Origin: Ligula intestinalis
Lineage: Eukaryota; Platyhelminthes; Cestoda; Diphyllobothriidea; Diphyllobothriidae
Assembly: GCA_036362985.1 (NCBI GenBank)
Contig: JAYGXS010000004.1
Location: forward strand, 35,372,455 to 35,436,454
Length of the DNA: 64,000 nt
Direction of reading: 5' to 3'
Positions 708 through 61,733 of this stretch are shown here, piece after piece. Below the pieces are notes generated by a model. The model worked only from the letters and a program-made list of their open reading frames with translations. It did no database searches and had not been told where the DNA came from. The translations under genes were made by a program, and so were the position numbers. How positions within the stretch are numbered: position 1 is the first letter of the stretch; each line of letters starts with the position of its first letter.

Positions 708-1838
708 GTACGTCACTATTTGGTATTTTTCGAATTAATTACTTATCGCTGCTCTAGTATGAAAACTATTTAGTTTTCATACTAGAGCTGCTAGAAGGCT
801 GGAAGGATGTCATTGCCCTATAGGAAATAATAATAAAACTGGCATTTAACAAGCTTATTTATGCGTCAGGTAAATTGAATTGGCCGTACATTTGGTGTGC
901 ACCGAAATATAGTTTAAAAGTATGGAAGACATTCGATCACCCAGTAATAAAATTTTACAGGATGCAAGCTAGATTAAGTGAACTGTTTCGATTTCTCTTT
1001 CATCTTCTTTACATTTTGCTTTCTGTTCTTCAGCTTCTTAACCAATGAAATGACCTCTTATTTTTCCTTGAATGACAGATTGAAATAGCCAGCCGAATTC
1101 TAGTATGTTCTTCACATGCAGCCGCCTTACGACACAATATTTCCCGCATAGTACTACAGCTTCAATTTTCAAATTGTCCGTTAGTACGTCCGTCGCCATT
1201 TTTGTATGAATGCCATTCCGACTGTGCTCTGGGGTGAGGACCTGAATTCGCAATCCAACGTCATCGTTTTGCTATAGTTTCTTTACTTCCACTAGTTACT
1301 GCCTACTTTCTTAAATATTTCACCTCTGGAAGTACACTTACATGATTCGTTTCTCGCGCTCTATTCGTTTAGGTATTCTCGTCTGCACCTGCAATTTTAC
1401 AAGTTGAATGCGGTTGCCTGGTTCTCGTTATAGCCATCGACTTCATAACACCTAAGCGCTGTTGAACTATGCATGTACTGGGCTTTAATAATGTCTTAAA
1501 ATATAGAAGATAGGTAGGTGGATGGAATTGATAAATATCTCGGAGTATGATAGCTCGTTATCCAATGTGTCCTTTTACGAATCATTAGCTCGGCCGGCTA
1601 ACTTATTAAGGGCAAACTCAGTAGGGGTGGCGTTGATCGGGCTTATCTTGGGTGTCACCTAGTAGCAATACGTTTATCTAAATCGATCTTGGTGGGTATC
1701 TTCATTATAAGCAACTCAATAATTTCTTGTCATCGGAGTCACCAGGCGTTGCCGTTCGGATTTTGGCTAATTTAAATTTTTTTCTGTTTAGCTGCTTAAA
1801 TATGGGTAATGCTTGTGATTTTTTCCTCTTCCTGTCAG
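708..1838 (+). other. NADK intron A
   Basis: Intron of about 1.1 kb running from GTACGT to TTCCTGTCAG. It is AT-rich and I saw no element or RNA in it. Confidence 0.7.
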
Positions 1839-2189
1839 TATTATGATATCTGCGTCATGCTGGAAGAGTTCAGTTTACGCGAACTTCAAAAGGATGAGGA
1901 CTTCGAACGCATTGTTTGTAGTCACCTGAACAATCACCCGGTGACCGCACACCTCGACAGTAACACACACACATCGAAAACTGTCACATGCCCACTTTTT
2001 CGGCATCCACAGGATTCGGACTTGCATCTGATCCACGGCGACTTGTGGAAATCGGATGTTGGGTGGACAAACCCTAACAGTTGTCTCGTGGTCTTTGACT
2101 CCCAGCTCGCTAACAAACCTTGTCTGACAGATTTAGTCATCTGTCTAGGCGGTGATGGCACGCTTCTTCATGTGACCTCCATATTTCAG
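1839..2189 (+). CDS. NADK: NAD kinase, exon B with GGDG motif
   Basis: This exon starts at TAT after CTTCCTGTCAG and ends ATATTTCAG|GTTGTT, both phase 0, giving 117 codons. It begins YYDICVMLEEF, corresponding to the ENMIVYVEKKVLE segment of human NADK, and ends CLGGDGTLLHVTSIFQ. The GGDGT motif at 2148-2162 is the family signature: the glycine loop and the aspartate used to activate the 2'-hydroxyl of NAD. The middle, with several His, Thr and Ser residues, is variable in the family. No frameshift or stop interrupts the exon. Confidence 0.92.
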
Positions 2190-3961
2190 GTTGTTTTTCA
2201 AAGTTTATCAATGCTACTTTTTCATCTTGCACTGTTTTATTTGTGTGCGAATACTAGCCTAACATCCGGAAACTGCTGTAGTTAATTGTAAAGTAGACGG
2301 TAAATTACTTTCTGGAGTACACTAAAAAGGATTCTTTTCGCTCTACACATCGCGAAGGTGCTATGACTGTTTGAAAGAGTGGCTTTTTCGAGTCATTTGA
2401 AACGAATTTTTATCTTTCTAGTTAGCCACATGTGCGACATGCTTCTGTTTCGAGGTCTGCGTGAATTTCTGTCCATTTGACCGATATTATAGTGTGTTGG
2501 TTCTGCAGACTCATTGTCTAGGTGCTGATATTTTTTCTATATTGCCTCCTAATTTGGCCATTGGCGGTAATCCTACGCACAAATGGGTTAGGAAATACAT
2601 ATATGCGCAGCCAAATCTTGCACTGAAAAGTTGAGTTTATCTTCCTTATTCCTTGTTCCTGAAATTTTACAGGTCAAACTACGAGAATTTAAGACCAGGT
2701 TATATGAATATTAGGCAGCACTCCGGAAAGCAGTTCCCTTATGATTTGTGGTAATCCAAAATTTGAAACAACAATATACATTACTGATACGTCGGCAGTC
2801 GGACAAATCACCATGAAAGCCACGCACCGGGTTAACTAGTTGAGCTTGCGCTTCGTGATAAAGATAAAAAAATTGAAACCCGGCCGCAGAATTGACGGCC
2901 ATCGGGAAGTTTGATACAGCTAGCCACGCCGTCACGAGTTTTAGCTACTTGATTTATTCACCATCCAAAAAGTTTGCTATTTTAGTCTGTATATGTCCAA
3001 ACAGAGCCTGGGTCCATAAGTACAGCTGGATAAATAACTTCTGTAGATCGGCCTTTATCTTCTGCAGCTAAAAAATCGGTGGAAAATCTTTTCTTTTGGG
3101 CACATTGACGTAAAAGCTAACCGTATTACGCCTTTAATCTTACTAAAGTTGTACATAAGTTAGTCGAAAAATATCAAATACAGAGGCGCACAAAAGAACA
3201 ACTACCTGACTGGTCCGTAGTTTGTTCTTTAAGTTGGTTTTCGCCGTGGAGGCTATAGTTACGGGGATATTGAAGGCTTTTCCGGATATGATGGGCAAAG
3301 TGTTCGGGTCCGAAGATTTCTGACGTGGTCAATCCCTAAGCGCACCAAAGATGTCCTTAGTGTCTGTTGCGTTGCCGCAGACTAAAGCACTTATCTTACC
3401 TTCTCTGATGTTTTTAATTTGCACATCCACGATATGGAACTGCTTGTTGAATTGGATGGCGATTAAGATTGCGTTCAATTATGTCTGGTTGACCCGCGCT
3501 TCGCTTTTTTACCTAGGGCGAATGTAAACTAGATGCATACGACCTAAAATATTGGAAAGTACGGGCCATAGGCCAGTTGCTCGAGTATTTGCAGAAAATT
3601 CTCAGGCATAAGTGCTGTGAGGGTTGGTTCCACCAGCGTACTATTCTCTTACTGATAAACCTGGCCGTCGAAGGTGAATAAGGTGTTCGGGCGTAGCTGC
3701 AGGAGCTCGATGAAGTGAACTGATCCACATATTTTGCCAACGCCCGAATAAGGTCGTTGGTAGTGGTGGTAGCGAAGCCGTGTAGTTTACCGTAGAATAG
3801 CGAACTTATCTTGAGTTATAAAATCTACTATGCCGCCTACTTTTAAATACGAGCACAAACTTCGCAGTCTTATATAAACATCCTCCGTTCTCGTCTTGAA
3901 GTCTACTGTTTTCATTTGATAGAAATTTGTATTCAGTGACTATGTGCTTAAGTGGCGACTC

Positions 3962-10699: not shown

Positions 10700-11109
10700 G
10701 TAATTGTTTGCTTGTTTATACTCCGCTACCATCACTAACATCTTTACCATCATCTGAATGGCGATACCTTTTGCAGGATCATGCGCCTCTTTTATTCACA
10801 ACTTGTTGAGACTGAACACAGCGGGCAGAACAGTCCTGAAAGAACGAAGCTTACTTGTTGGTGTGGACTGCGGGTATTCGGATGGGGTTTATAAGTCAAG
10901 CGGCCTTTGGCAAAGATAATGTGTAAAGTAAACAGGCTTTTGGGTTTGTTGGAGAAGCTATTGTGCCGCAAGTGGCTCATGCATAAATGTACATTAGTTT
11001 TGCAACTTGGTTATCAATGACAAGTTAAGTTACCAAGACCTATCGCTGTTACCGGAATCTATATAGTCACTGAAGAGGATGCAATCACCGGAACAAGAGT
11101 TTTATTTGC

Positions 11110-11640
11110 CGCAAAAGGTGACAACCGCGTGAGCTGCGAGCTGCTGGAGTCATGGTTCTCAGGCTCCCAATCCATCAACAAGAGCAACGACTTGGCGTTC
11201 CCATACGGTGTACTGAGAAATTTCCTGAGTAAGAGAATCAGTCACGTGGGAAGGGCCGGGCTTAAAAACAACTGGCGACAGCGGGCATAATTGCCACGCC
11301 ACTATCAAGCCCGCATCTGACGCTGAAAAGGCAATTGTGGCAATTATTGAGTCGAACTCAGAGTATCAAGCCAGTACCACATCAATTAAGATCCAAGTGG
11401 TGGCTAAAGAAGTGAATAATTATCACACACATGCGGATGACCACCATGAGCTGTAAATATTGCAACCTGTGCATGTCTCAACCTTATCTGCGCATGACCA
11501 TGACTATGTTACCATCACCTATGATTAAGGATTCCCGGCGGAATCAGAAACGTCAGGCATCTTGTTCCAGTGATCGTATCCTTTTATTCTGAACTGCTTC
11601 CTGGGACTCGCATATTCTCCACTATTGACGATAGTCATTG
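11110..11640 (+). mobile_element. Penelope-like element 3' end with hammerhead-like terminal repeat
   Basis: GDNRVSCELLESWFSGSQSI is followed by NKSNDLA and then YGVLR, matching the C-terminal part of the GIY-YIG endonuclease in Penelope-like elements and closely resembling the 24.6-kb copy. About 300 nt downstream is the terminal-repeat motif: a box-I relic (CTATGA, 11519), hairpin GATTC-CCGGCG-GAATC (11530-11545), GAAAC (11547-11551), GUC and an ACTGCTTCCTGGGACTCGCA tail. The reverse transcriptase and the endonuclease start are missing. It lies in the NADK intron before exon F. Confidence 0.75.
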
Positions 11641-17465: not shown

Positions 17466-18891
17466 GCAGCCTCGACTGGTGCTATCATCTCTTCGCGTAT
17501 GGTTGGTAATTTGTTAGGGCCTAGGAGGTAACTTGAAAGGATCCTTTGGCGTCGACTTAATGCTTCGCCTCGATTAGGTGTGTGTGTGAGAATAGAACTT
17601 GAGACCAGTCGATTTTCATTTTTACCTAGCTAGACTGCTACGTGATCACGCACCCTCTTTTTAAGACGCCTCGTTAACCCTTGGGGTGAGATGCATTAGC
17701 TGTACATCGTGTACAAACGTGATCTAGCTCCACGCAACACAGACTTATAAACAAATGGGAATGGGTAACTCCTCTCATGCACGTGAACGTAGCATAGAGG
17801 CAACATCAGGATGGAGCCATCGTAGTTTGTTCGAAATAAACACCCAATTGGCTGGCCATGAGATCCGAATTGATACAAACCCTTACCGCAGTCAATTGTT
17901 CGGGCCGGTCTACCGACTGATACTTTGGGCGGGTAGACCGCCTACATGTGTCATACACGACCTGTCTACCAAAAAAACATCAGGTTCTCATACATACTAT
18001 ATTGGACTACCTGGATCACACACGGGTCAGAGGCCTGTAGTGGCCACTAGCGGCCACTGTGGGGACCCCTGATCGCTGACTCATCGTGCTGTCACCCACC
18101 GAGGTTGCAGTCGCGGGGACTTCCCCTAATACGCGCTCTTGTGTGAATCAGCGCACCCTCTCTACCCTTCGCTCAATTTCGGGCGCGACCTACTGACACG
18201 CCCCGTCTCGGTTGCACTCAGGCCGGTGCGTAACCTCGTGCGTACCAACCAATCACTTTTAAGGGTGCATAAGACAAAGAAAAAAATGTGGCCCCTCGTA
18301 CAAATGTCGCCAGACATCACTTCAGGCCCGGATAGGGCACGGAATGAATTCTTTCGATTCAAATCTTTTCCTAATTATTCTTCCAATCCTTCGGTACAGA
18401 ATAAACTCTTCCTACCGCTCTGGCCTTCGCATAGTTTATATCTTCTCCTAGTGAACCGGGCCCGAAAGATGTAGCCGTAGGGGTCAACTCTATTAACCTT
18501 AACACTTCTCAATAGGCCATAGAGGGGAGCTAAATCCCACTTATGAGGCTTGCTGGTTCCTTGCCTGTGGTTGCTGATTTAGGACACGTTCTTCTGTACG
18601 GCGTATGTGTTAGAAAGGCGAGGAACGGCTTCAGTAAATTCTGTCGAACGAGAAGAACGAGATCCTGTTTTCTGATTTCAGCATAAATTACAACAATGGG
18701 TCCCAGTTATTTTTCGCAAATATGTGCGCCTGTTTGTGTTCGTTTTCGGTACACACTTTTACTTCATACTTACACGTTTGAGCTTGATTTGTATGGCTAT
18801 AGTAACCTTGATCAAGATAGTTCAGAGTACTTTGAGTCAACCATGTACTTGGGCGCGAATGCGAGAGAATACTCGTATTCCAGGAATTACT
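17466..18891. other. Unassigned sequence
   Basis: Several open frames of about 105-111 codons overlap on both strands at 17.7-18.5 kb with no recognisable domain. I could not assign this stretch. Confidence 0.35.
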
Positions 18892-18942
18892 ATTGGTAAA
18901 GGAGACATATGGTCGATCACTGGAACAAAATTAATTTTTTCC

Positions 18943-18977
18943 TGAGCTTTCGAGCTCTTACAAGAGCTCATCGTCAG
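18943..18977 (-). ncRNA. Hammerhead ribozyme-like motif, family C (minus)
   Basis: Read on the minus strand: CCU, then CUGACGA (18971-18977), U, the perfect hairpin GAGCUCUUGUAAGAGCUC (18952-18969), GAAA (18948-18951), self-complementary AGCU, C, AGG. CCU before the box pairs with AGG after the putative cleavage site as stem I. All core bases of a type I hammerhead are in place. Stem III could form only with a second copy. Activity is inferred, not shown. Confidence 0.75.
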
Positions 18978-19903
18978 AGGTGGAGAAACAGCAACAAATG
19001 TGGAAGCTACTTGGGGCGTGTGCACAATAACTAAAATTTTGAACGTGCAGAAAATCAATAATTGTGTGTGCTGCCGATGCCTACGCGTTCGGCCCCGGAG
19101 GACCCAAAAAAGAGAACCACCGAGGATATGGCACGCTCTGCCATACATAAAAGACGTCTCAGAAGCGATTGAGTGCATCGCTGCGGGACTAGGTGTTGGA
19201 ATTGCACACAGACCCAAAGCTACAATGCGCAGCAGAGTGATGAAAATAAAAGACCGGCTTACGCAAAATGTAATTATACAGGTCAAACGGAACGCATGCT
19301 CAGATCGCGTATACGTGAACACAAGCAGGCCCTGCTACTAGGCGACGAATCATCACAAGTTGCAACTTACACCTACGAAACAGGCCATGAGTTCAACTTC
19401 ACTGCCGTCAAAGTACTTGCCCACGCGGGAAACAAGACGAGCAGAAAATTTATCGAAGCCTGGTCCACGGATGAGAATTCGGTCAACAGATGTGTCGAAT
19501 TGGCGCCAGCGTACAGGGCCTTACGCTATTGCAAACGATCACATCCAGACGCCCGCCGTAATCAATTGGCCCAAAATCCTCCATAATCATCCCACTTTCG
19601 ATGCTGACGTGGCCATTTGGCGCCCAAGCCTACATAACCCCTCGCTTCTCATCCTCCTTCCCTTTTCCTATGACTTTTTAATTGCCCATCCCTCCCACCA
19701 TAACTATAACTTGTTTTGTTGACGATTCTATTTCTGTAAATATTTGCGCACAACTTGTCGATCTTGTCTACTGGCACTGGCTAGCACAGCCCTCAGTGGC
19801 AAGTCGGCAGCACACACAATTATTGATTTTCTGCACGTTCAAAATTTTAGTTATTGTACACACGCCCCAAGTAGCTTCCACATTTGCTGCTGTTTCTCCA
19901 CCT

Positions 19904-19941
19904 CTAACGATGGGCTCTTGTAAGAGCTCGAAAGCTCAGGA
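19904..19941 (+). ncRNA. Hammerhead ribozyme-like motif, family C (plus), box I mutated
   Basis: This is the inverted twin of the 18.95-kb motif. Box I reads CUAACGA (19904-19910), with G to A at a core position; the stem II hairpin is GGGCUCUUG/UAAGAGCUC, with GAAA at 19930-19933 and AGCU at 19933-19936. The core change should abolish cleavage while the minus-strand copy is intact. Confidence 0.65.
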
Positions 19942-19989
19942 AAAAATCAATTTTGTTCCAGTGATCGACCATATGTCTCCTTTACCAAT

Positions 19990-23028: not shown

Positions 23029-23339
23029 CTGGAGGAGGTGGAAAAAAGGAGCTGAATGCAGTATGGTCCATTACCCTTTTCGAGTTCTAAAATAAGCGCA
23101 GACACAGTAAAAGACCAGTCCCAGGAAATCTTCGCCAAAATTTCCAAGTATTTTTTCGGTTAAAAATGAGTACAGTAGCTTATCTATTTCATGAAATGTC
23201 AACTTCAAATACGAAATGTGTTTGTTGTAATTTTGCTTACCGTGCAGCTGAAACTCAGCGTATTTCAGTTAGAGAAGGACACCGGCTTTTAAACTCACTT
23301 TACTCCGAGTACTTGCAAAATACATACTCTATTCAGATA

Positions 23340-23560
23340 GCATTGCCAGGAACGACAAGGGGACTGGAATGGTCATTTCTGGCTTATTAGTCGTCGTCAG
23401 CTAGTCATACCCAGCCCCAATTTATGCATCATTCGAGGCTAGAACTCGCAATCTTTTTGATCAGATTCTAACGCTCCAGCCAATGAGCCAAGAGCTCGTT
23501 ATCTTCCCGGTTTAGATCCGGAGATATTGAGACTTGTTTATGAACGTTCGTGACCATTAA
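23340..23560 (-). repeat. tRNA-derived SINE with hammerhead-like tail
   Basis: The minus strand shows the leader CCGGGAAGATAACGAGCTC, a tRNA-like head with TTGGCTCATTGG (box A) and GAGTTCTAGCC (box B), then a tail with GACUAG, CUGACGA (23394-23400), a weak hairpin GACUAAUAAGCC, A, GAAA, AUGACCAU, U, CCAGUCC. GACU before the box pairs with AGUC after the site. The same arrangement occurs at 46.15-46.35 kb. Confidence 0.65.
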
Positions 23561-25400: not shown

Positions 25401-25459
25401 TCAAACTAACTGCTCTTAGTTTCGTATAAATTGAAAGGCAGGCATCCCAAGAAATGTAA

Positions 25460-25614
25460 TTTCATGGAAAGGCATTCTTTGGGAAATAGGTAGTTTATTG
25501 CGTAAATTTTCGACATTTGCACATTTCTCTCAAGTCTGATGACGAACTGGGGAACCAGTGTCGAAAATTTACGCAATAAACTACCTATTTCCCAAAGAAT
25601 GCCTTTCCATGAAA
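25460..25614. repeat. Perfect 56-nt inverted repeat with hammerhead-like loop (family D)
   Basis: 25460-25515 and 25559-25614 are exact reverse complements, separated by 43 nt. The loop together with the right arm reads on the plus strand CUGAUGA (25535-25541), hairpin ACUGG-GGAA-CCAGU, GUC, GAAAA, UUU and, a few bases on, CGCAAUAAA. This matches the layout of the Penelope terminal motifs (box I, hairpin, GAA, self-complementary AAUU, poly(A)-like signal). Exact arms imply recent origin or gene conversion. Confidence 0.8.
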
Positions 25615-25840
25615 ATAACTGCTCTTAGGAGAATCCTGTAATTCACCACGCCATGAGGAAGAGGTCACATGGCGCTAATTTTAGTTTGTAATCACTACAG
25701 AGTAAATCGTATGAGTTATAGGCAGTATTAATAAATAAACGGATACGATGAGTTATGAATGAACATTTCATGCTCTTAAAAATTCTCATGATTGAAATAT
25801 TTTCTCGAATGAATGCAAAGGTTCGCGATCCAGGTACTTG

Positions 25841-26334
25841 CATGGATGAGGAAGAAGGCAGATCGAGCACCAGGTCAATTGATTTATNNNNNNNNNNNNN
25901 NNNNNNNNNNNNNNNNNNNNNNNNNNNNNNNNNNNNNNNNNNNNNNNNNNNNNNNNNNNNNNNNNNNNNNNNNNNNNNNNNNNNNNNNNNNNNNNNNNNN
26001 NNNNNNNNNNNNNNNNNNNNNNNNNNNNNNNNNNNNNNNNNNNNNNNNNNNNNNNNNNNNNNNNNNNNNNNNNNNNNNNNNNNNNNNNNNNNNNNNNNNN
26101 NNNNNNNNNNNNNNNNNNNNNNNNNNNNNNNNNNNNNNNNNNNNNNNNNNNNNNNNNNNNNNNNNNNNNNNNNNNNNNNNNNNNNNNNNNNNNNNNNNNN
26201 NNNNNNNNNNNNNNNNNNNNNNNNNNNNNNNNNNNNNNNNNNNNNNNNNNNNNNNNNNNNNNNNNNNNNNNNNNNNNNNNNNNNNNNATAAATCAATTGA
26301 CCTGGTGCTCGATCTGCCTTCTTCCTCATCCATG
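25841..26334. repeat. 47-nt inverted repeat bracketing an assembly gap
   Basis: 25841-25887 and 26288-26334 are exact reverse complements that stop at the two edges of the run of N. The missing piece is therefore the centre of a longer palindrome or element. Outer ends read CATGGA, as does the outer end of the 25.46-kb inverted repeat, but the two repeats are otherwise different. Confidence 0.75.
25888..26287. other. Assembly gap (400 N)
   Basis: A run of 400 N, a round number that suggests a scaffold gap of estimated size. Open frames drawn through it are meaningless. Confidence 0.99.
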
Positions 26335-27540
26335 AAATATTTTCTGAAATTTGAATATATATTTTTTTCAAATATCCCATTTGAGAATCGCATAATTGAT
26401 TACCAAGTGAGCATAAGCAACAGCACGTTTATGCATGTTTTCTCGAAAATGTATTTGGATCTATGAGGACATCAACGATCAAGAAGAAAAATAGTATCCT
26501 AATTTGGTAGCCATTTTTTACTAAATAATTATTTTTGTAGGCAGTCAGAAGGATGCTCATTTAGACGTTGCTGAGATTCCTTGAGAGTAGACTGTATTCC
26601 GACTCTACTTAAGTAATTTATTAGAATCGAAAACACGCTTCAGATTTTAGGTTGACATCTCATGAGACAGGGAATCTACCGTGTCCTATCGGTTAAAAAT
26701 TATATAGGCCACCTCCAGAGCCTCGTTTGCAGCGAGCAAATTAAGAAGCGGGCCATAGTTGGATGGAATTTGCCCTCACGCCCCATACCAGTGGCAAATC
26801 TGATAAGTGCAGTGCCGGGTAAAGCTTAAGGCCTTCTTTTAACGAGTACCACTCATGGACAGGTTTATAATGACTCAGAGTGCCTTCACAATGTGAATTA
26901 CACATTTATTTTGGATATTCTTTCGCCAAAAGTATTTTTTTGCCTAATGTTTACCAATTTCTCAACCAGACCATCAAAGTAATCGAGCATACTTACATAA
27001 AAGTGCATGAACTTTACAATTCAATGTTACAATGTTCCTATGTTACAATCCATTTTATGACCTAAATTGAATAATTTGTTCAAAGCTTAAAGAAATTTAG
27101 AATTCCCACTGGCAGTTCATGAGATAGGGAATTTACTGTACAGTGTGTTTTGTAAGTGAGATGGATGCTGCGCAAGTCGCAAATGCACCCTTTCGTCATT
27201 TAAAAAATAACTATCGATGAGCATGCAATTAAGCCTGAAATTCTCCAGGCTCGATAACGGCCTGTACCTGGTCATTTAAATTGCCCTTTTTCATGTTGGT
27301 CATATTTGTTTTCGGAAAAAGGTAATTGATGTTTGTGGCCAATGAAAATTGGCCAAAACTGATGACATTCCCTGACTATGGTGATTGATTAATAGTCACA
27401 TTTTTACAATACACGAATTGGCTTGTGCCACTTGACTGACAGCAATGTAACCTTTTGAGCCTTTTTCTTCATTAGTATCCATTTCAGCATCTATTATATA
27501 CTCATTCAACTGGAACCCGTGTATTCAACCTGCAAGTTAC

Positions 27541-32430: not shown

Positions 32431-32640
32431 TACAAGCGAACATGCGAGTCCCAGGAAACAATTGAGACGAAGACGACTCGATCGCTGGGACAATACTTTT
32501 ATTCGCCTGACGTTTCGAGGTCCGACCCATATCTGCTACTGCTCCCTGATTATGTCTCTGATGATGAATCTGCGATGAATCTCGAAACATCAGGTGAATA
32601 AAAGTGTTGTCCCAGCGATTGAATCGTCTTCTTCTCAAAA
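32431..32640. repeat. Head-to-head pair of Penelope family-A terminal repeats
   Basis: The segment 32465-32520, read on the minus strand, carries CUCGAAACGUCAGGCGAAUA followed by an AATAAAA signal and TTGTCCCAGCGATCGAG. The plus-strand copy carries CUGAUGA (32558-32564), GAAACAUC (32584-32591), AGGTGAATAAAAG and TTGTCCCAGCGATTGAATCG. The two tails are near-perfect inverted repeats of about 58 nt around a roughly 60-nt centre. Box I is visible only in the plus copy. The family-A tail CTGGGACTCGCATGTTCGCT continues on the minus strand to about 32431. Confidence 0.8.
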
Positions 32641-34829: not shown

Positions 34830-35170
34830 TGCTGTCAATACAAACGAAAATGCGAGTCTAAGGAAGTGATTGAAAAAAAGCAGATGCGATTGCTCTGAAA
34901 AAATGTTATTTGCCCGACTTTTCGAAAACTGTCGCGGATCCGTCATCAGAGGAAACAGCAGAAACGGGTAATACATGCACACAGGTAACTATCGTCAATA
35001 AGGGCATTAATTGTCGCAAGTATGCGAAAAGCCTAGCGATTGCATCCTATAAATACCGCAACCCCTTGTGTATCAGTTATGCAGGTCTGCTACTGAGGGA
35101 TCTGTGATGGATTTAGAGACGTCAGGCGAATAAATTCTTGCCCCAGTGACCACATCTGCTTCTTTTAAAA
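34830..35170. repeat. Inverted pair of Penelope family-A terminal repeats
   Basis: Minus copy: CCU, CUGAUGA (34943-34949), degraded hairpin starting CGGAUCCGCGA, GAAAAGUC (34916-34923), GGGCAAAUAA, then the tail towards 34843 (CTTAGACTCGCATTTTCG). Plus copy: CUGAGGGAUC (35093), GAGACGUC (35116-35123), AGGCGAATAAA and CCAGTGACCACATCTGCTTC. The stretch between them (GTCGCAAGTATGCG, GCGATTGCATCC, AACCCCTTGTG) is also found just upstream of the 40.94-kb motif, so it belongs to the terminal repeat. Confidence 0.72.
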
Positions 35171-36580: not shown

Positions 36581-37240
36581 ATCCTTCATCTGCGATGGAT
36601 TTCGAAACATCAAATGAATAAAAGTCTTGCCCAACGATCGCATCTTTTTCCCAAGTACTTCCTGAGACTCACACGTTGGGTCGTACTGATGTAGAGGGTT
36701 GCTCGTCAAATTCCCTCGAAAAGGCAGAGTGGGAAGCAAATCCTTTTTTTCAGCAGTCGGCAAGTCCTGTTTCGGGAAACTTTCTCTCATATACTTACTG
36801 AGAAACTTCTCGAAAAGACCGCTTTCTTGCACAACATTTTTTATAAAGGCAAATTCGTTTGCCAGCGTATCTAGCGTGCATTTTCTCCTAGGTTGTTTGG
36901 TGAGGCAGCGGACTATACTTCTGTATACATTTTTAACTTGTCCAGTCCATGTTTTCTCACGAAATACACTTCTCTGAATTGTTCCATCAGACGTAGTACG
37001 TCTAGAACGGATGGACACTCTCCAGTCTCTTTTCCAAAGTGAAGGTTAAAGCTGTGTAGCACTGATTCCCTTTATCAATGAAAGTCTCCAATCCTAGCTT
37101 TATATCTGCTAGATATCGGGCATAGGAAAAAAGGATACCTTAAAACTGGAGGGATCTTCTTGTCCTCTAGTTTCCAATGAATAAGCCACATAATAGAGGT
37201 CCCATCGCTACGCCATTGATTTAGCACTTAATCTTACCAT
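36581..37240 (-). mobile_element. Penelope-like reverse-transcriptase relic fused to an opposite-strand terminal repeat
   Basis: Minus-strand frames give NGVAM-like and YARYLADIKLGLETFIDKGN (a YADD-box relic), then IQRSVFREKTWTGQVKNVYRS, RCLTKQPRRKCTLDTLANEF, and ESGLFEKFLSKYM, the palm/thumb order of a Penelope RT. The coding strand then runs straight into the antisense of a family-A terminal motif: on the plus strand 36586-36618 reads AUCUGCGAUGGAUUUC, GAAACAUC, AAATGAATAAAAG. Stops and frame changes show decay. Endonuclease and 5' RT parts are missing. Confidence 0.8.
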
Positions 37241-40800: not shown

Positions 40801-41000
40801 CCAGAGTGCAACCATAATCGACTAAAGGGAGCCGTTAGTTGCGATAGTTACGCAGTGGCGATTGCATCTTTGAACTATTGAAACCCCTTTTATATGAATA
40901 ACCCTTACTTGATACTGCCTCTGAAGCTAGGTTTGAGCTAGAAGCCGAAACGTCAGGCGCATAAAGTAACCCTGTCTACTTCGTCCTAACCACCCACCTG
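40800..41000 (+). repeat. Solo Penelope family-A terminal repeat
   Basis: It contains the subterminal block TTGCGATAGTTACGCAGTGG, GCGATTGCATC and AACCCCTTTTATATGAATAA also seen at 34.99-35.08 kb, then CUGAAG, hairpin GGUUU-GAGCUA-GAAGCC (40930-40946, one G-U pair), GAAACGUC (40947-40954), AGGCGCATAAAG. Box I is damaged. There is no coding sequence. Confidence 0.68.
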
Positions 41001-41679: not shown

Positions 41680-41960
41680 TTGCTGATAGGAGCGAACAGA
41701 CGAGTTCCAGGAAGCAGTCTAGAATGAGAAGCTGCGATCGCTGAAACAAGGAGTCCATTGACCTGATGTTGCGGATTCTCGCTAGAACCCACGATCAGAG
41801 ACAACCGCAAATATAAAGACTGCGCACCCTGAGTCTCTATCACCCTTCCCGCGATTGGCTCCGAGGATGATGAGTTCGAGTGAGAATCCGAAAGGTCAGG
41901 CCAAAAAGCTTCTCCCGCCGCTGCTTCTGCTTTTTCCGCTTCCAGCGATCGCTCATTCTC
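41680..41960. repeat. Divergent pair of Penelope family-A terminal repeats
   Basis: Minus copy: GUCU, CUGAUCG (41792-41798), hairpin GGGUUC-UAGCGA-GAAUCC (41773-41790, one G-U pair), GCAAC in place of GAAAC, AUC, AGG, then a tail to 41690 ending GCTTCCTGGAACTCG. Plus copy: GAUGAUG (41866 region), hairpin with GAGUUC/GAAUCC, GAAAGGUC (41890-41897), AGGC, then CCAGCGATCGC. The two copies are about 70 nt apart at their box-I ends. Confidence 0.7.
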
Positions 41961-45800: not shown

Positions 45801-46149
45801 TTGGATGCCTCCGTACATCCAAAGTAGACAAGTCGGAGAACTTCGAATCCTCACCAAATCTGCCGATTTTTTTTACTAAAAGCATCTGCTAACAATGAAT
45901 TCATGGCAGGTCCCGAAGCCATGATACCTACATGGTCCAATCGCCTTGTTCGCACATATCTGATCTTCCAATGGCCATGGGTGCGGTTAACAGAACAACC
46001 ATCAATGTCCGTTGCAGTAATGAGGGTCAAATAATCCCATGCCTGTATCTGCGATTGATCTGTAATCTAGCTGCGGGGGGTGAGATTCACACTTTAAATG
46101 CATTTATTGGGCTACATGGGGTCTCATTACTAATAAAATAGCCGGCAAA
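42821..46149. other. Unassigned, mostly AT-rich
   Basis: A fragment of the Penelope family-A tail is present on the minus strand at 43225-43262 (CTTCTGAACTGCTTCCTGGA). Otherwise 43.3-46.1 kb shows no gene, RNA or recognisable repeat. Confidence 0.4.
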
Positions 46150-46350
46150 CACAAGATACCTGGAATGGTCATTTCTGGCTCATTAGCCCTCATCAGCCAA
46201 GCCTACTCAGCCCACTTGTTGTACTACCCGAGGCTCAAACATGCGACGTTTTGATTAGCAGTTTAACGCTCTTACTATTGAGCCACGGGCTCCTTGTCTT
46301 GCCGGTTTGAATCGGGAATATAAATATGAATGCTCACCGATCGCCAACGG
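46150..46350 (-). repeat. tRNA-derived SINE with complete hammerhead-like motif
   Basis: The minus strand starts with a leader (CGATCGGTGAGCATTC, CCGATTCAAACCGGCAAGAC), then a tRNA-like head with GAGCCCGTGGCTCAATAG (box A), an arm GCTAATCAAAACGTCGC and TGTTTGAGCC (box B). A tail follows carrying CUUGG, CUGAUGA (46190-46196), hairpin GGGCU-AAUG-AGCC, A, GAAA (46172-46175), AUGACCAU, U, CCAGG (46159-46163). CUUGG pairs with CCAGG as stem I. It is a SINE and not a tRNA gene, because there is no matching acceptor stem. Confidence 0.75.
46157..46201 (-). ncRNA. Hammerhead ribozyme-like motif in SINE
   Basis: Complete order on the minus strand: stem I strand CUUGG, box CUGAUGA, stem II GGCU/AGCC with loop AAUG, GAAA preceded by one unpaired A, stem III self-complementary AUGnnCAU, cleavage-type U, stem I strand CCAGG. 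The extra A and a G-A mismatch at the base of stem II are departures from the ideal core. Smα of schistosomes is the known precedent for a SINE-like repeat with a hammerhead. Activity is inferred. Confidence 0.6.
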
Positions 46351-52689: not shown

Positions 52690-53990
52690 AAGCTATTGTG
52701 TTTCGCTCTTCTGTCAGCTGGTGTGCTGCAATGTGTTTCGGCCCTCTGGAGCAAAGCTTTTCAGAGAGGGACTGCTGTCGAAGTGTAGTACTTGGTTTGT
52801 GCTGGTGAATTTCCTGAATACTGTAGTTTGCAGTAGTTCTTTTGAAAACCGGCGTACAAAGTCATAGAGAAAGATGAGTTGGTTTTTTCTTTCCGCCTTC
52901 ATTGCGGATTGGATATTTGAGTCAACCGAGTTCGGTAATTCGTTGCGATGTCAGCTGTTTTGACAAAGACGAATGTGTCATCGACATAACGAACCCAAAA
53001 ATTTGATTGACCTGCAATGAAGACAAAGCGTTCTATCCGTTGACGGACCACTTCTGTTGTAACCTAGTGTTTTCCTGTGTCAGCACCGATTATGTCCCCC
53101 AGTAAGCATTAGGAAGAGAAGACAGAAAAGGATAACAGCTAGTACTTTACTGTCACTTGTACTAGTACGTCAACTCTGTTCCGTGTCCAGCAGCTTGCCT
53201 TCTGTGGTCGGTCTCGCTTCGGCAGCAATCAAACTTGATAGGCGAGCCCATTGGAGTGCCTTTATTTTGTTCATCCATTTGTCTACTGAATCTGAAGTAG
53301 GTTTTAATACAATGTCGGAGAAGTTCAAGTTTATGTTTGCACTTAAGGAGGATTGTCCCTCTCATCGTAGAGTCCGATTAGAAGTTGTCTTACAACACCT
53401 ATCGTGAGTTGCTATGGGGTGGAGTTGAAATGTGAAACAATGTCAAAAGCTATCATGGATTCATTTGGCTCTAAGTTCAGATTTTTTATCCATTCAAGGA
53501 ATTGTTTAGTAGAAGTCACAGTTGTTGGTGAGCCTACTGCCAGGAACATAAGGTGACCAAACATCCATTTTACCAAACCGTATGTAGAGGTGTCAAGAAG
53601 GACGATGGGCCTAAGCCGTATGTTTTCATTGTGCACTTTCGGCATACCGTAAAATCACGCTGAGGCTGTATCAGTCGGTTCCACGGAAAACAAATCGTTT
53701 GGTGTGATTGCACCGTTTGCTCTGAGTTTTGCTAGACTTTTGCCTATTTGGGTAAGCAAGTATTTCAGTTCACTGACAGGACATATCTTATACGATAATG
53801 TGCGCAAAAATTTGAGGTCCAGATGTCTTATCGTTTTCATCATCCCTCAAAGAAAGCGAAGAAGAAGGTCCAAGGACATGGACCGAGTTATATTGGGACT
53901 GACGTTTCGGACACTCGCTTGTGTCCATCGCCTTCGAAAATGCAAGGGTAATAGGCCAACCTCCGCTGGAAAGTTGGTCTTTGACTGGCG
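52690..53990 (-). mobile_element. Penelope-like element (family B): terminal repeat plus reverse transcriptase
   Basis: Read on the minus strand: hammerhead-like motif at 53932-53900, then LKYLLTQIGKSLAKLRANGA, YGMPKVHNEN-like and LRPIVLLDTSTYGLVKWMFG, SPTTVTSTKQFLEWIKNLNL, SMIAFDIVSHF, NKGTPMGSPI, an ERFVFIAGQ-NFWVRYVDDTFV box, and KNQLIFLYDFVRRFSKEL to NQVLHFDSSPSL. This is the full RT order (fingers, PMGSPI, catalytic YVDD at 52977-52988, FLDV). YVDD is intact but several frame changes and stops break the frame. The GIY-YIG domain is missing. Confidence 0.87.
53900..53932 (-). ncRNA. Hammerhead ribozyme-like motif, family B (box I degraded)
   Basis: The minus strand reads GGCGAU, perfect hairpin GGACAC-AAGCGA-GUGUCC, GAAAC, GUC, AGUCC. 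The hairpin and the GAAACGUC part are perfect, while box I is AGGCGA instead of CUGACGA. It lies upstream of the RT in the sense direction. Confidence 0.6.
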
Positions 53991-54219: not shown

Positions 54220-54560
54220 AGTAATTAGTCCGTCGGTGGACGAGGGACAGGCTAGTAAGCGCACTGACTTGCCAAAAATTACGACAGCCGCAAAAGGGAC
54301 AAAGGTCACATGAACCCCCCAGCGGTCAATCTAACGGACAGTCAGCAGCGAACAAGCAGGTCAAAGTTCGTGTGCCGAACAAAGATATAATAACAGGCAA
54401 GCAGCGAGACTGAAACAGTCCTGGCAAACAGGAAAAACCACCACGTTACTCTGACGATGGAAACAAGCGAGTGTCCGAAACATCAGTCCAATATAACTCG
54501 GTACATGTCCTTAAACATTCTTCTTCGTCTTCTTTGGGGATGATGAAAACGATATCTAAT
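54220..54560 (+). repeat. Solo Penelope terminal repeat, family B, copy 2, with complete motif
   Basis: It is the same-orientation homologue of 20.39-20.72 kb. The motif at 54451-54487 is complete: ACU, CUGACGA, U, hairpin GGAAAC-AAGCGA-GUGUCC (one mismatch from GGACAC), GAAAC, AUC, AGU. ACU pairs with AGU as stem I. It lies about 200 nt from the antisense RT element and points away from it. Confidence 0.75.
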
Positions 54561-58439: not shown

Positions 58440-58590
58440 TTGCAAGAACCAGAAGTATATTCGCCCGGCGTTTCACATTCATGTTCGCCGTCTCTGATGA
58501 GGAATCCGCGCGGGATGTCGAAACATCAGACAAAGAAAAGTCTTATCACAGAGATCACATCTTCTTCGTAGCTGCCTGTGAGTATGAGTT
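58440..58590. repeat. Overlapping inverted pair of hammerhead-like terminal motifs
   Basis: Plus strand: GUCU, CUGAUGA (58494-58500), imperfect hairpin GGAAUCC-GCGC-GGGAUGUC, GAAAC (58520-58524), AUC, AGAC; GUCU and AGAC pair perfectly as stem I. Minus strand: GGCGA, hairpin ACAU-GA-AUGU, GAAACGCC (58467-58474), GGGCGAATA. The two motifs face away from a shared centre of about 20 nt, next to the 5' side of the antisense Penelope element. Confidence 0.7.
58494..58530 (+). ncRNA. Hammerhead ribozyme-like motif with perfect stem I
   Basis: Box CUGAUGA, GAAAC, AUC and the pairing stem I strands GUCU/AGAC are all present. Stem II is imperfect. The self-complementary ACGU is ACAU here, a CpG-type transition. 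Confidence 0.6.
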
Positions 58591-58854
58591 TTAGAAGGGA
58601 CGAACAAAAGTTTGTGTCTATTTTGCCTATTTCCGACCATCCGAAAATAAGTCGAACAGCCGCAAATGTCTACTGATTGTTATTAAGTAGCGATTAAAAC
58701 GTTAATGTAAATGCCAACAATAGATTTGTGGCAAAAATGATTCCACAATCCACAGACTGAAATTAAGTGCCCTCTTAAAATCTTGTGTTTGTTCAGAGAA
58801 TCAATATACAAAGTAATTCTTATAACACATAAACAAGAGCATCGGGCAAATTAC

Positions 58855-59123
58855 CTTCAACACCACGTCCTTCCCAAATGTGACGTTTCCGGAGACAGTA
58901 AGATGATAGAGCTCAATCATACTAGGAACCTTTGACATGTGCTTTTCAAAATCCCTCATTTTTTCAAAGTGCTTTCCCAACTTGACAATTGGGAGCGTTG
59001 GGAAGTTTCGGAGTGGTGAGGGCAGCAACTGACCGGCACGCCAGATGTACAGGTCAGACATCAAGAGCATTAAGTCAGACGTTACCTTAACTGGGAGGAA
59101 CCTGCTGCGTGGGACCCGTAGAC
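58855..59123 (-). CDS. UGP2: UDP-glucose pyrophosphorylase, penultimate exon
   Basis: The minus strand exon starts after TTTTCAATTCAG and ends GTGTTGAAG|GTAATTT. With the G of the preceding exon it reads LRVPRSRFLPVKVTSDLMLL, then MSDLYIWRAGQLLPSPLR, KLGKHFEKMRDFEKHMSKVP and SMIELYHLTVSGNVTFGKDV. VPRSRFLPVK-TSDL is the UGP2 signature whose Lys contacts the nucleotide-sugar, followed by SIVEL-xLxVSGDVxFGK leading into the beta-helix. It is intact. UGP2 makes UDP-glucose from UTP and glucose-1-phosphate in the cytosol; in tapeworms this feeds glycogen and glycocalyx synthesis. Confidence 0.95.
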
Positions 59124-61733
59124 CTGAATTGAAAAGAGTCGAGAGAATTTTACACGCCTTAAAGGTTATACGAATTTGGAAATTTCGCTTGAGAATGACT
59201 GGAAGAAGTAATGGGTTGAAATAGGGACCTACATAAGCCAGGCTATCAACATTGGTGACACTCGAAAACTTAATCAAATTATCCGCAAAGTTTGCAGGTG
59301 ACCCCTCTTCTGAGGGAAAAACCATTCAGGCTAAACAAATATTGTGTCCGTAGACGATGGTAGTACCACTGCTGGCATTCTGGAGTTCTAGCTCCACGAG
59401 GTGCCCGAATAAAATTGAAGCAATGAGGTCATTCCTAATGACTGGGGTTCAGGCATCCTTGTGTCCGTATTCAAGAAGGGACATAAGACAAGGTACGGGA
59501 TGTACTGCAATATAAGTTTCATTGACATTGCAGTGAAAGTCTTCTCTGATGCCCTTAAGCGAGTCCCGACTGTGTACTGCTCTAGGGCAAGACCCAACCA
59601 AGCAGGATTCCGTGCAGGGCGTGGATGTGTGAACCAGATATCCACACTGAGACATATTCTTGAATTCCACCATTTCTACTTGCAGCCAACGGCCCCTTTC
59701 TTTGCTTTCTTCTCCACTGCGTTCGATTCCTCTTATCATGAGTTACTGTGGCGAAAAATGGCACTGGATAGCTTGTTTGCCAGAATCGTTGCCCTGCTCA
59801 AGGTCTACTATGACCTCACGACTGCGTGAGTTCTGGCCCAGGATAATCCTTCCATCCTTTCGATACCCAGACTGGAGTTCAAAATTGCCGTATTCTATGG
59901 GCCCTTTCCCTAACCTACGCTGTAGAATGGGTTCGTGGAAAGGGGTTTGGGTTGCACGCGGACACCGGCTGACTGATCTGGACAGCACTGATTATGTTGT
60001 CGTGCTAGCTTCAAGCTTTGGCGCTCTACCATCTATGATGTCATTGACTAATGAGGTCGCTAAATTGTTCGGTCAATTGATTAATGGTGGGAAGGCAAAC
60101 GCGTTTAAAGACTGCCTCCCGATCAGGAGAAGGCCTCCCTTACGATTAGTGATTGTCAACTTGAACCTGTAGACAAGTTCAAATACCCCAGGGTGATGCT
60201 ATCCCCGAATAAGCAGCGCAAGAATGAAAATGCTCTCCAACTCGATGCTGCTCGCCGGTTTTTTTCAAACGTTAGACAGTGTCTACGGCTCCAACGCGAC
60301 ATTTCTATCGCCACGAGGATTCGCATGCATGCATGCATCCAGTCAGTCCTTCGTTATGGTTGTGAATGCTGGACTGTACGCGTAGAATGTGAGCGAAAGT
60401 TGAAGTTATTTGACTATCACTGCTCCATGAGCAGCCTTGGAGTAAAGTAAATCGAGTTCGACTCAGAGGAGTCTGTGAATACCCGCTGGGTTAACATCGC
60501 AAGGATATCCCCCAGGTCATTTAAGAATAACAACCGAAGTGGTTTGGGCACATTCTTCGTCTGCCACCTCTAGAACTCAGTGTTGCCACGCGCGATCTGG
60601 CCCCGTGACCCACTTGGGGGTATCAGAGATTGGTTCAACCTAAAACCCGGCCCGAAAAAATTCAGCAAGTTATGAAAGTGGTTCTTTGATCTTCGGTCTC
60701 CGACACTGGCAAAGTGAATGGGTCAAGCTTTCCATGACCGGTGCTGTAGATCGAAAAGTGTGGCCGCATACAATACGAGACATCATCAGGGTCACCTGAA
60801 TCAGACACGAGCACAACCGTGCCACGCGAAAGAAGGCACTTTAGAAACTTATAAATGGGTTGATATTCAAAAATACACAAACAGTTTTGCGCGTAAACAT
60901 GTTACATATCTTAAATATTCGTCTTCCCCGGAGAAATTTCATGTAAAGTGGCCACCAAACAATAAACTGTAAGCCAACAATTACATTTCTTTGAATAAAA
61001 GTCAACTTCTTGAAGCATCGGAAATACGTGTAAAGTAAATACCTCTTACTTAAGGCATTTCATAAATGATTTTCCCTGAGTTGACTGCGGAAATTTTTCA
61101 TCAGAGTAAATTTGATGGAACAGTCTAAACAGAGTATTATTTGACAAGGCTAAAAAATCCATAATACTTTTGATGTTCCTTTTTGTAGAATGGATGTTAC
61201 ATGCTTACTCCACAGCAGTTGATTGACTTCGACTCAAAAGTTCATTGACATTGCGGGTCTGACCTTCAAAAGTTATGTCCCGATCACCCAAATCCATGTC
61301 CTGCACCTAATAGATTCTAATATGATAACCTTCAAAATATTATTTAAAAAAAGTAAAACTTTGAAATATTTGAATCCGCCAATAGTAAACGATTGACATG
61401 AGTACTATTAAAAACTTGCTCCGATAGGGATTCATTGTAGGGTCGTCCCAATGGCAAGTCTCTCAGCTCCAGCTTCTTACAGAATTCGTGGTTAAAGGTT
61501 TAGTGCTTGATTAATGCGTGATCAGTGTACAGTAGGAAATAAATTAAAGCCTCTTATAATTGTTTTTTCTGAACTAAAAATGTAGATGGTAAGGTTGCGG
61601 AAAGGCTAAAAAGACTAAAATGAAAGTCTATGAACCAAGAAAACTTTAACGATAACTCCTATTGACTAACATAATCTGCAAGTACTACAAAACCATACGT
61701 TTGCACGTTTAGTAACTGTGCTAGTAAACGCAC
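59124..61733 (-). other. UGP2 intron holding a non-LTR relic
   Basis: A 2.6-kb intron. 59.4-60.8 kb is a non-LTR retrotransposon relic antisense to the gene; 60.9-61.7 kb is AT-rich with nothing recognised. Confidence 0.8.
59400..60800 (+). mobile_element. Non-LTR retrotransposon reverse transcriptase relic
   Basis: Plus-strand order over several frames: DWGSGILVSVFKKGHKT, ISFIDIAVKVFSDALK, RPNQAGFRAGRGCVNQISTL, FAFFSTAFDSSYHELLWRKM, RGHRLTDLDSTDYVVVLASS, SLTNEVAKLFGQLINGGKAN, DAARRFFSNVRQCLRLQRDI, IQSVLRYGCECWTVRVE and FGHILRLPPLELSVATRD. This is the palm to thumb order of a CR1/RTE-type RT and its C-terminal tail. The catalytic YADD is DSTDY here, the first Asp region is FSTAFDS, and stops and frame shifts are frequent. 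The endonuclease is missing. Confidence 0.88.

Follow-up and report, generated by a model that had tools for sequence, protein, structure and literature searches.

A minimal type I hammerhead motif in the terminal regions of Penelope-like elements of the cestode Ligula intestinalis, with a palindrome where stem III would be

A 64,000-nucleotide stretch of the Ligula intestinalis genome (the window; C4:35372455-35436454 in a searched genome of 644 Mb) carries on its minus strand, around position 18943, a short motif with the boxes of a hammerhead ribozyme. This raises the question of whether the motif is a hammerhead, which element it belongs to and how it could act with its third helix reduced to a few letters. 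The letters that the initial annotation gave for 18943-18977(-) were confirmed exactly, and from 18980 to 18941(-) they read CCU-CUGACGA-U-GAGCUC-UUGUAA-GAGCUC-GAAA-GC-UC-AGG. The CUGANGA and GAAA boxes and a UH cleavage site are all present: stem I is CCU/AGG, the first box is CUGACGA, stem II is GAGCUC/GAGCUC with middle letters able to extend the pairing further, and GAAA is followed by the palindrome A-GC-U and C17. The earlier scheme was amended: one base between CUGANGA and stem II is unpaired, and at 18943 this base is a U that belongs to a start codon. The architecture had been called complete; this is wrong because there is no stem III hairpin, helix III being missing in cis and stem I having three pairs only. 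Core boxes with a UH site, compensatory stems I and II and an absent or reduced helix III are what marks the minimal hammerheads of Penelope-like elements (PLEs), and all of these were found. The motif is very probably a genuine PLE hammerhead of the minimal type I form, and cleavage would be expected after C17, between 18944 and 18943.

The motif is overrepresented in the window. The pattern CTGANGA-N19-GAAA-NN-TC with at most one mismatch has 8 matches against 0.38 expected, and none of 100 dinucleotide shuffles reached 8. A covariance model (R1) was built from 28 copies of contig C1 and no window copies; its E-values are rough according to the tool itself. R1 placed 18939-18982(-) at the top of its window matches (48.6 bits, E 1.4e-13) and returned 12 window stretches at E<1e-3, including all six sites to which the initial annotation had ascribed the same order of elements. 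Further stretches at this threshold are 19899, 32553, 34911(-), 40916, 41859 and 53901(-). The hammerhead identity proposed earlier is thus supported by the model, as it is by covariation in a larger sample. The accompanying statement that core bases stay fixed is true at four of the six sites (18943, 54451, 58494 and 25535), the cores at 11519 and 41773 being broken.

The copies differ widely in their state. Those at 54446-54489(+) (47.7 bits) and 58489-58532(+) (39.6 bits; stem I GUCU/AGAC) have intact cores and carry GAAA-CA-TC, in which the stem III dinucleotide CA is not palindromic. CA is also found in the intact-core copy at 32553-32596(+) (43.5 bits), which the inverted repeat I7 adjoins, and AG in the copy at 34911-34954(-) (43.1 bits), whose core boxes are intact. 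At 25531-25575(+) (39.1 bits), 579 nt 3' of an endonuclease fragment, an AAUU-family hammerhead has an intact core and stem I AGU/ACG with two of three pairs. The sense copy at 19899-19942(+) (39.5 bits), 316 nt 3' of an endonuclease fragment, is substituted in the core (CTAACGA at 19904). Decayed copies lie at 40916-40959(+) (CTGAAGC; 32.9 bits), 41859-41902(+) (27.1 bits), 11516-11559(+) (21.2 bits, E 1.6e-4), where the core is broken (CTATGATTA...) and stem II GATTC/GAATC is kept, and 41760-41803(-) (20.1 bits, E 3.7e-4), with the broken core CTGATCG...GCAA. A weak endonuclease similarity (11051-11218, E 0.003) lies near the 11516 copy. A partial copy at 53901-53930(-) (25.0 bits, model positions 10-39), missing the 5' part of the core, is inverted to the 54446 copy in inverted repeat I11, with PLE coding fragments nearby. 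Judged by their letters, the window copies of the PLE hammerhead are mostly decayed; core, both stems and palindrome are all intact in the 18943 copy alone among the 12, and this copy sits in an inverted copy of the terminal region.

Several other features of the window were recorded. Arms of 59 nt at 25457-25617, 98% complementary and 43 nt apart, flank the AAUU-family hammerhead and resemble two head-to-head PLE tails, and an assembly gap (a run of N, 25838-26337) falls within an inverted repeat. Host exons were seen at 58801-59325(-), for UDP-glucose pyrophosphorylase (Pfam UDPGP, 1.2e-31), and at 1800-2285(+), with a weak NAD kinase match (0.0015, below the cut-off).

The Penelope origin claimed at the outset is borne out by the position of the motif 3' of the endonuclease, by the domains of a longer copy (L087) and by PLE coding matches. 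Pfam searches of short window pieces gave no reverse transcriptase (RT) or GIY-YIG match, and L087 gave both: its 799-aa open frame matches RVT_1 (6e-7, 29.8 bits, just above the cut-off of 29.6) and GIY-YIG (0.0066, 17.2 bits, below the cut-off of 22.6). Because one frame carries the two domains, L087 is assigned to the Penelope-like elements. Protein relatives of the frame come from Spirometra and Sparganum, the best at 77% over 87% of the query and others at up to 84% over 42%; a homologous-protein search with the RT-side piece 36611-37045(-) and a PDB sequence search with the L087 frame returned no match. Penelope elements make up 9.95% of the Sparganum proliferum and 10.41% of the Spirometra erinaceieuropaei assemblies, according to the accessible part of PMC8166898.

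The position of the hammerhead in the element was read from copies chosen by their proteins. In the region about 230-450 nt downstream of 18 endonuclease matches, picked by protein similarity alone, a hammerhead was found in 16. Both core boxes are kept in 14 of the 18, 13 of these with the AGCU palindrome; the exceptions are L078, cut short inside the hammerhead, L084 and L086, with a changed GAAA box, and L085, with none. Since these copies are recent, they show position more than selection. Thirty-two hammerhead stretches were then compared with PLE coding matches, from the window and from 200 kb of C1 (20 of the 24 model matches there, E up to 3.3e-4). For ten, PLE coding sequence lies no more than 1.5 kb upstream on the same strand; for several it is antisense or downstream only, and 14 have no match within 1.5 kb to the one PLE query used. 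At C1:92270, where the core is decayed, PLE residues 11-94 start 46 nt downstream and the frame is unbroken between motif and N-terminal domain; the distance is 47 nt at C1:93933, where the match covers residues 160-749, the N-terminal part being missing. The hammerhead therefore stands about 0.3 kb 3' of the endonuclease and again at the ORF start. The PLE terminal region (pLTR) is found at the ORF start, at the 3' end and in inverted arms, the ends being seen on separate copies.

At the 18943 locus, a PLE coding fragment at 19075-19583(+) covers sequence before and in the endonuclease and ends at a stop (tblastn with the L087 frame, residues 618-679 and 695-799, and own-genome protein search). 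The sense 3' terminal region at 19804-19989(+), with the second hammerhead copy, forms one arm of inverted repeat I2. The other arm, 18892-19077(-), is an inverted (5') copy of this region, 97% complementary to it, and holds the intact hammerhead. Being carried by the inverted terminal region, the intact 18943 ribozyme is antisense to the coding fragment. Assignment to the retrozymes, which consist of hammerhead-bearing non-coding repeats of 150-400 nt in tandem, was considered and rejected, the 18943 motif belonging to an ORF-bearing PLE.

Genome-wide, CTGANGA-(9 to 25 nt)-GAAA has 96,254 matches against 32,254 for the reversed pattern, and the pattern extended by NN-TC-NN-G has 12,353 against 311. 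When the endonuclease fragment served as query for a protein search of the same genome, 29,385 candidates were obtained, and each of the 150 that were scored had an E below 1e-56. At least seven pairs among these 150 listed matches are in inverted order (minus then plus) at distances of 1.7-4.1 kb, for example C4:14491292/14493614, which suggests that PLEs are often inserted head to head. At C1:152404, 642442 and 965118 there is a short repeated CTGACGAGAATTTATCGAAA motif without a clear stem II.

To what extent the stems are maintained was assessed in 40 distinct copies, six from the window and 34 others, all having exact boxes, a distance of 17-23 nt from one box to the other and GAAA followed by NN-UH. 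Twenty-five of the 40 rows came from regions chosen by eye for a visible stem II hairpin while the flanks (stem I and palindrome) were still unseen; as this selection used the letters from core to GAAA, the stem II counts lean to pairing and those of stems I and III less so. Stem I pairs in 90/78/78% of copies at offsets 0-2 against 90/58/44% in shuffled data, the values at the second and third positions being reached by 1 and 0 of 2000 shuffles, respectively. Pairing is at chance from the fourth position (offset 3) onward, so stem I has three base pairs and no room for loop I contacts. Stem II is about 6 bp long, and compensatory changes occur in both stems.

An alignment of 28 of the 34 non-window copies (A1) gave a similar picture. 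The named structure is paired in 77.0% of cells against 60.9% after shuffling (0 of 500), a count that leans to the structure because A1 omits six mostly poor-pairing rows (C1:22995, 171135, 4592, L030, L035 and L037). Sliding the structure by one column lowers pairing to 46.5%, with a sharp peak at slide 0. Pairs changed on both sides number 7, an ordinary count that 130 of 500 shuffles also reach. When all columns of 30 copies were scanned against one another, the third stem I pair scored highest (z 5.2), and several non-helical pairs reached z 3.5 to 4.7, so the scores are inflated by copy relatedness. RNAalifold at default settings predicted no common structure for A1, we think because the stem II register differs by one base between families. 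The covariation that the initial annotation had seen across six sites could not be carried by so few sequences; the larger sample supports it.

It had also been stated that the lack of a covariance-model hit would count against a hammerhead. No hammerhead match was returned by an Rfam scan of the window at E<=5, or for the 7 PLE-type loci in a scan of ten loci at E<=10; the model that does match was built here. Because Rfam models missed every PLE-type copy tried (window and seven loci), this abundant type of PLE hammerhead is easily overlooked. Rfam matches to mir-196 and mir-3149 were discarded because an inverted repeat and a simple repeat underlie them; those to mir-196 (both strands, below the cut-off) fall on the 25457-25617 arms.

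The motif departs from a canonical three-helix hammerhead in having no room for a stem III hairpin in cis and a stem I too short for loop contacts. Two letters and UC or UU follow GAAA, with no hairpin, in 16 of the 18 copies picked by endonuclease similarity; for the 40-copy set and the 12,353-match pattern, the two-nucleotide spacing from A15.1 to U16.1 was built into the search rule. In the first 100 copies listed (coordinate order, both strands), the dinucleotide is CG in 48, AT in 17, GC in 13, TA in 1 and another in 21. A-N-N-U is palindromic (ACGU, AGCU, AAUU) in 79 of the 100, against 39.6 expected from base make-up, with a fourth palindrome, AUAU, in one copy. When 110 distinct sequences were grouped at 70% identity of the stem II segment, 11 of 14 groups had a palindromic majority, as did 2 of 3 at 60% and 18 of 22 at 75%. 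ACAU and AUGU, found at C1:138678 and in copies 54451, 58494 and 32558 of the window, are the variants that CpG decay of ACGU would be expected to yield.

Because A-N-N-U is mostly palindromic, a stem III between two copies is predicted, and its formation between two ribozymes would be the simplest reading of the sequences. Small PLE-linked hammerheads, described by Lunse, Weinberg and Breaker in 2017, are reported to cleave as dimers. In newt and viroid hammerheads, too, stem III is formed between two ribozymes, as far as the available portion of PMC6155905 goes. Here two ribozymes, placed either in the two terminal regions of one tandem or read-through transcript or on separate transcripts, would pair via the 4-bp palindrome, and the paired ribozymes would cleave after C17; the cut is predicted after GAAANNUC, for which the corresponding AAUU-family string is GAAANNUH. 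We consider this dimer step, pairing through the palindrome and then cleavage, probable. ACGU, AGCU and AAUU offer natural compensatory variants for dimer cleavage.

The strongest competing account is that the hammerhead was active once and that present copies hitchhike with the element as inert relics. In most window copies the motif is indeed broken or the palindrome gone, the core of the sense copy at 19904 carries a substitution, and for an Anolis element, RNA with a dead hammerhead inserted as well as wild type (PMC11167929, accessible part). But the core persists across families whose stems show compensatory changes and whose palindromes differ, and 14 of the 18 endonuclease-anchored copies keep both boxes, weak evidence given that these copies are recent. 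We regard the relic account as unlikely. The annotation's phrase 'functional or recently functional' fits the subfamily of these anchored copies and, going by their letters, would misfit most window copies.

The ribozyme and the reading frame of the element overlap. In the 18943 copy, an ATG is formed by A9-U10.1-G10.2 (18971-18969), its U being the unpaired base after CUGANGA. The frame that begins there, 18837-18971(-), encodes 44 aa (MSSCKSSKAQEKINFVPVIDHMSPLPIVIPGIRVFSRIRAQVHG); its first ten codons consist of stem II, GAAA and the palindrome and end in S-K-A-Q, after which the PLE N terminus follows, with IPGIRVFSRIR in common with the 799-aa frame of L087. Among the 100 listed copies, ATG is found at A9 in 43 and ACG in 36, and where ACG is found N7 is often U, giving an in-frame ATG at A6-U7-G8. 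At least one of the two ATG sites is kept in 36 of 39 distinct ACGU copies, not significantly more than the 34.9 expected (p 0.32); for ACGU and AGCU pooled, 47 of 50 keep one against 42.8 expected, and this p of 0.011 arises mostly because the two families differ. A start of the form M-x6-7-KRQ, the stretch encoded by the ribozyme, occurs in 9 of 120 listed protein relatives (P0010, P0019, P0022, P0024, P0025, P0027, P0043 and P0082 of Sparganum proliferum and P0053 from a metagenome), most others starting further inside. Two distant PLE proteins, P0098 (from the fluke Dicrocoelium) and P0099, start M-x6-7-KRL, which suggests that ribozyme and start codon may overlap there too, with a different stem I.

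Such overlap invites the explanation that selection acts on the PLE N terminus M...(P/S)K(R/A)Q and that the hammerhead look is a by-product. In its favour, many copies of the ACGU and AGCU families have a frame that is open across the motif, and Sparganum proteins keep K-R-Q. However, the palindrome codon is CGU (Arg) or GCU (Ala) by family; since it keeps the RNA palindrome and not the amino acid, selection on the RNA is favoured. The AAUU family, moreover, has no ATG at A9 in any of 17 distinct listed copies, N7=U in four and a stop further on in 11, but it still has the boxes, stem II and the palindrome. Paired letters also change together, and CUGA lies 5' of the start codon. A purely coding origin is accordingly very improbable.

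Folding of single strands with ViennaRNA gave no hammerhead and paired CUGA with UCAG in 6 of 8 test strings, all of the ACGU and AGCU families; the two-strand optimum of the strings tested was a full-length duplex, not a hammerhead dimer. A plain CUGA/UCAG stem-loop serving protein binding or RT initiation instead of a ribozyme, which this minimum-energy monomer fold would favour, can be given hardly any weight, because nearly all listed copies of the AAUU family have another sequence in place of UCAG (UCAC or UCAU; UUAC at 25531) and neither AAUU test string forms such a hairpin, although the family keeps boxes and stem II, and because only the hammerhead predicts the covariation seen at the third stem I pair. 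For a minimal hammerhead, the modelled hairpin could keep single copies silent, which fits a need for a partner or a protein.

In the ACGU and AGCU families, with the ATG of the ORF in the core (A9-U10.1-G10.2, or A6-U7-G8 where N7=U), cleavage would remove the start codon, because the ATG is part of the core: cutting after C17 would leave it on the 5' product. Uncut RNA would then be the message and cut RNA a non-translatable unit, so that a start codon within the core would make cleavage and translation mutually exclusive. It is tentatively conceivable that the ribozyme is a dimer-sensing switch which converts PLE mRNA into a non-translatable unit-length template, the palindrome serving as a family-specific recognition tag. 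The start codon in the core of two families and a palindrome that differs between families are the most noteworthy features of the system. With more than 10,000 pattern matches and several families in one genome, the purpose of PLE hammerheads becomes testable.

Minimal PLE hammerheads without helix III, and overlap of ORF and ribozyme, have already been published (PMC7761336, PMC6155905 and PMC11167929, each as far as accessible). As in the minimal type I hammerheads of PLEs and Terminons (accessible parts of PMC7761336 and PMC6155905), the motif has a CUGANGA/GAAA core, no helix III and no loop I-II contacts, and stands in the pseudo-LTR of a PLE with thousands of dispersed copies; a possible difference is that three palindromic stem III tetranucleotide families and start codons in the core occur here side by side in one genome. 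It resembles the small dimer-cleaving variants of Lunse, Weinberg and Breaker (2017), compared by title, in its PLE linkage and diminished stem III, the dimer being a prediction here. In PAc, a Poseidon element of Anolis, ORF and hammerhead also overlap, the cleavage site lying 26 nt past the start codon; this hammerhead required protein to cleave and was dispensable for insertion in vitro (PMC11167929, in its accessible sections). According to the same sections, PAc is one element conserved in Anolis species, whereas several families of another animal are concerned here, with the ATG at A9-U-G and possibly at A6-U7-G8 where N7=U. No report of a cestode PLE hammerhead was found in the literature searched, and the two key PLE-hammerhead papers may contain one.

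A second hammerhead-like type is present in the window at 23337-23417(-) and 46133-46213(-). It is characterized by CTGATGANGGCTAATRAGCCNGAAA, a longer stem I and a stem III of the form ACAG-UU-CUGU or AUGGCCAU-like, and is separate from the element of the 18943 motif. It is like metazoan retrozymes and Sm-alpha-like elements in its type I core, longer stem I and stem III, and differs from them, as far as the accessible parts of PMC7229834 and PMC6155905 describe them, in being mostly dispersed, not tandem (100 listed places). In locus L066 (114-1101), three copies lie 401 and 361 nt apart, and the locus has a weak match to Rfam Hammerhead_HH9, whose cut-off of 52 bits it does not reach (25.4 bits, E 0.0022). 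The pattern of this second family, CTGATGANNNCTAATRAGCCNGAAA, has 2,936 genome matches against 0 when reversed.
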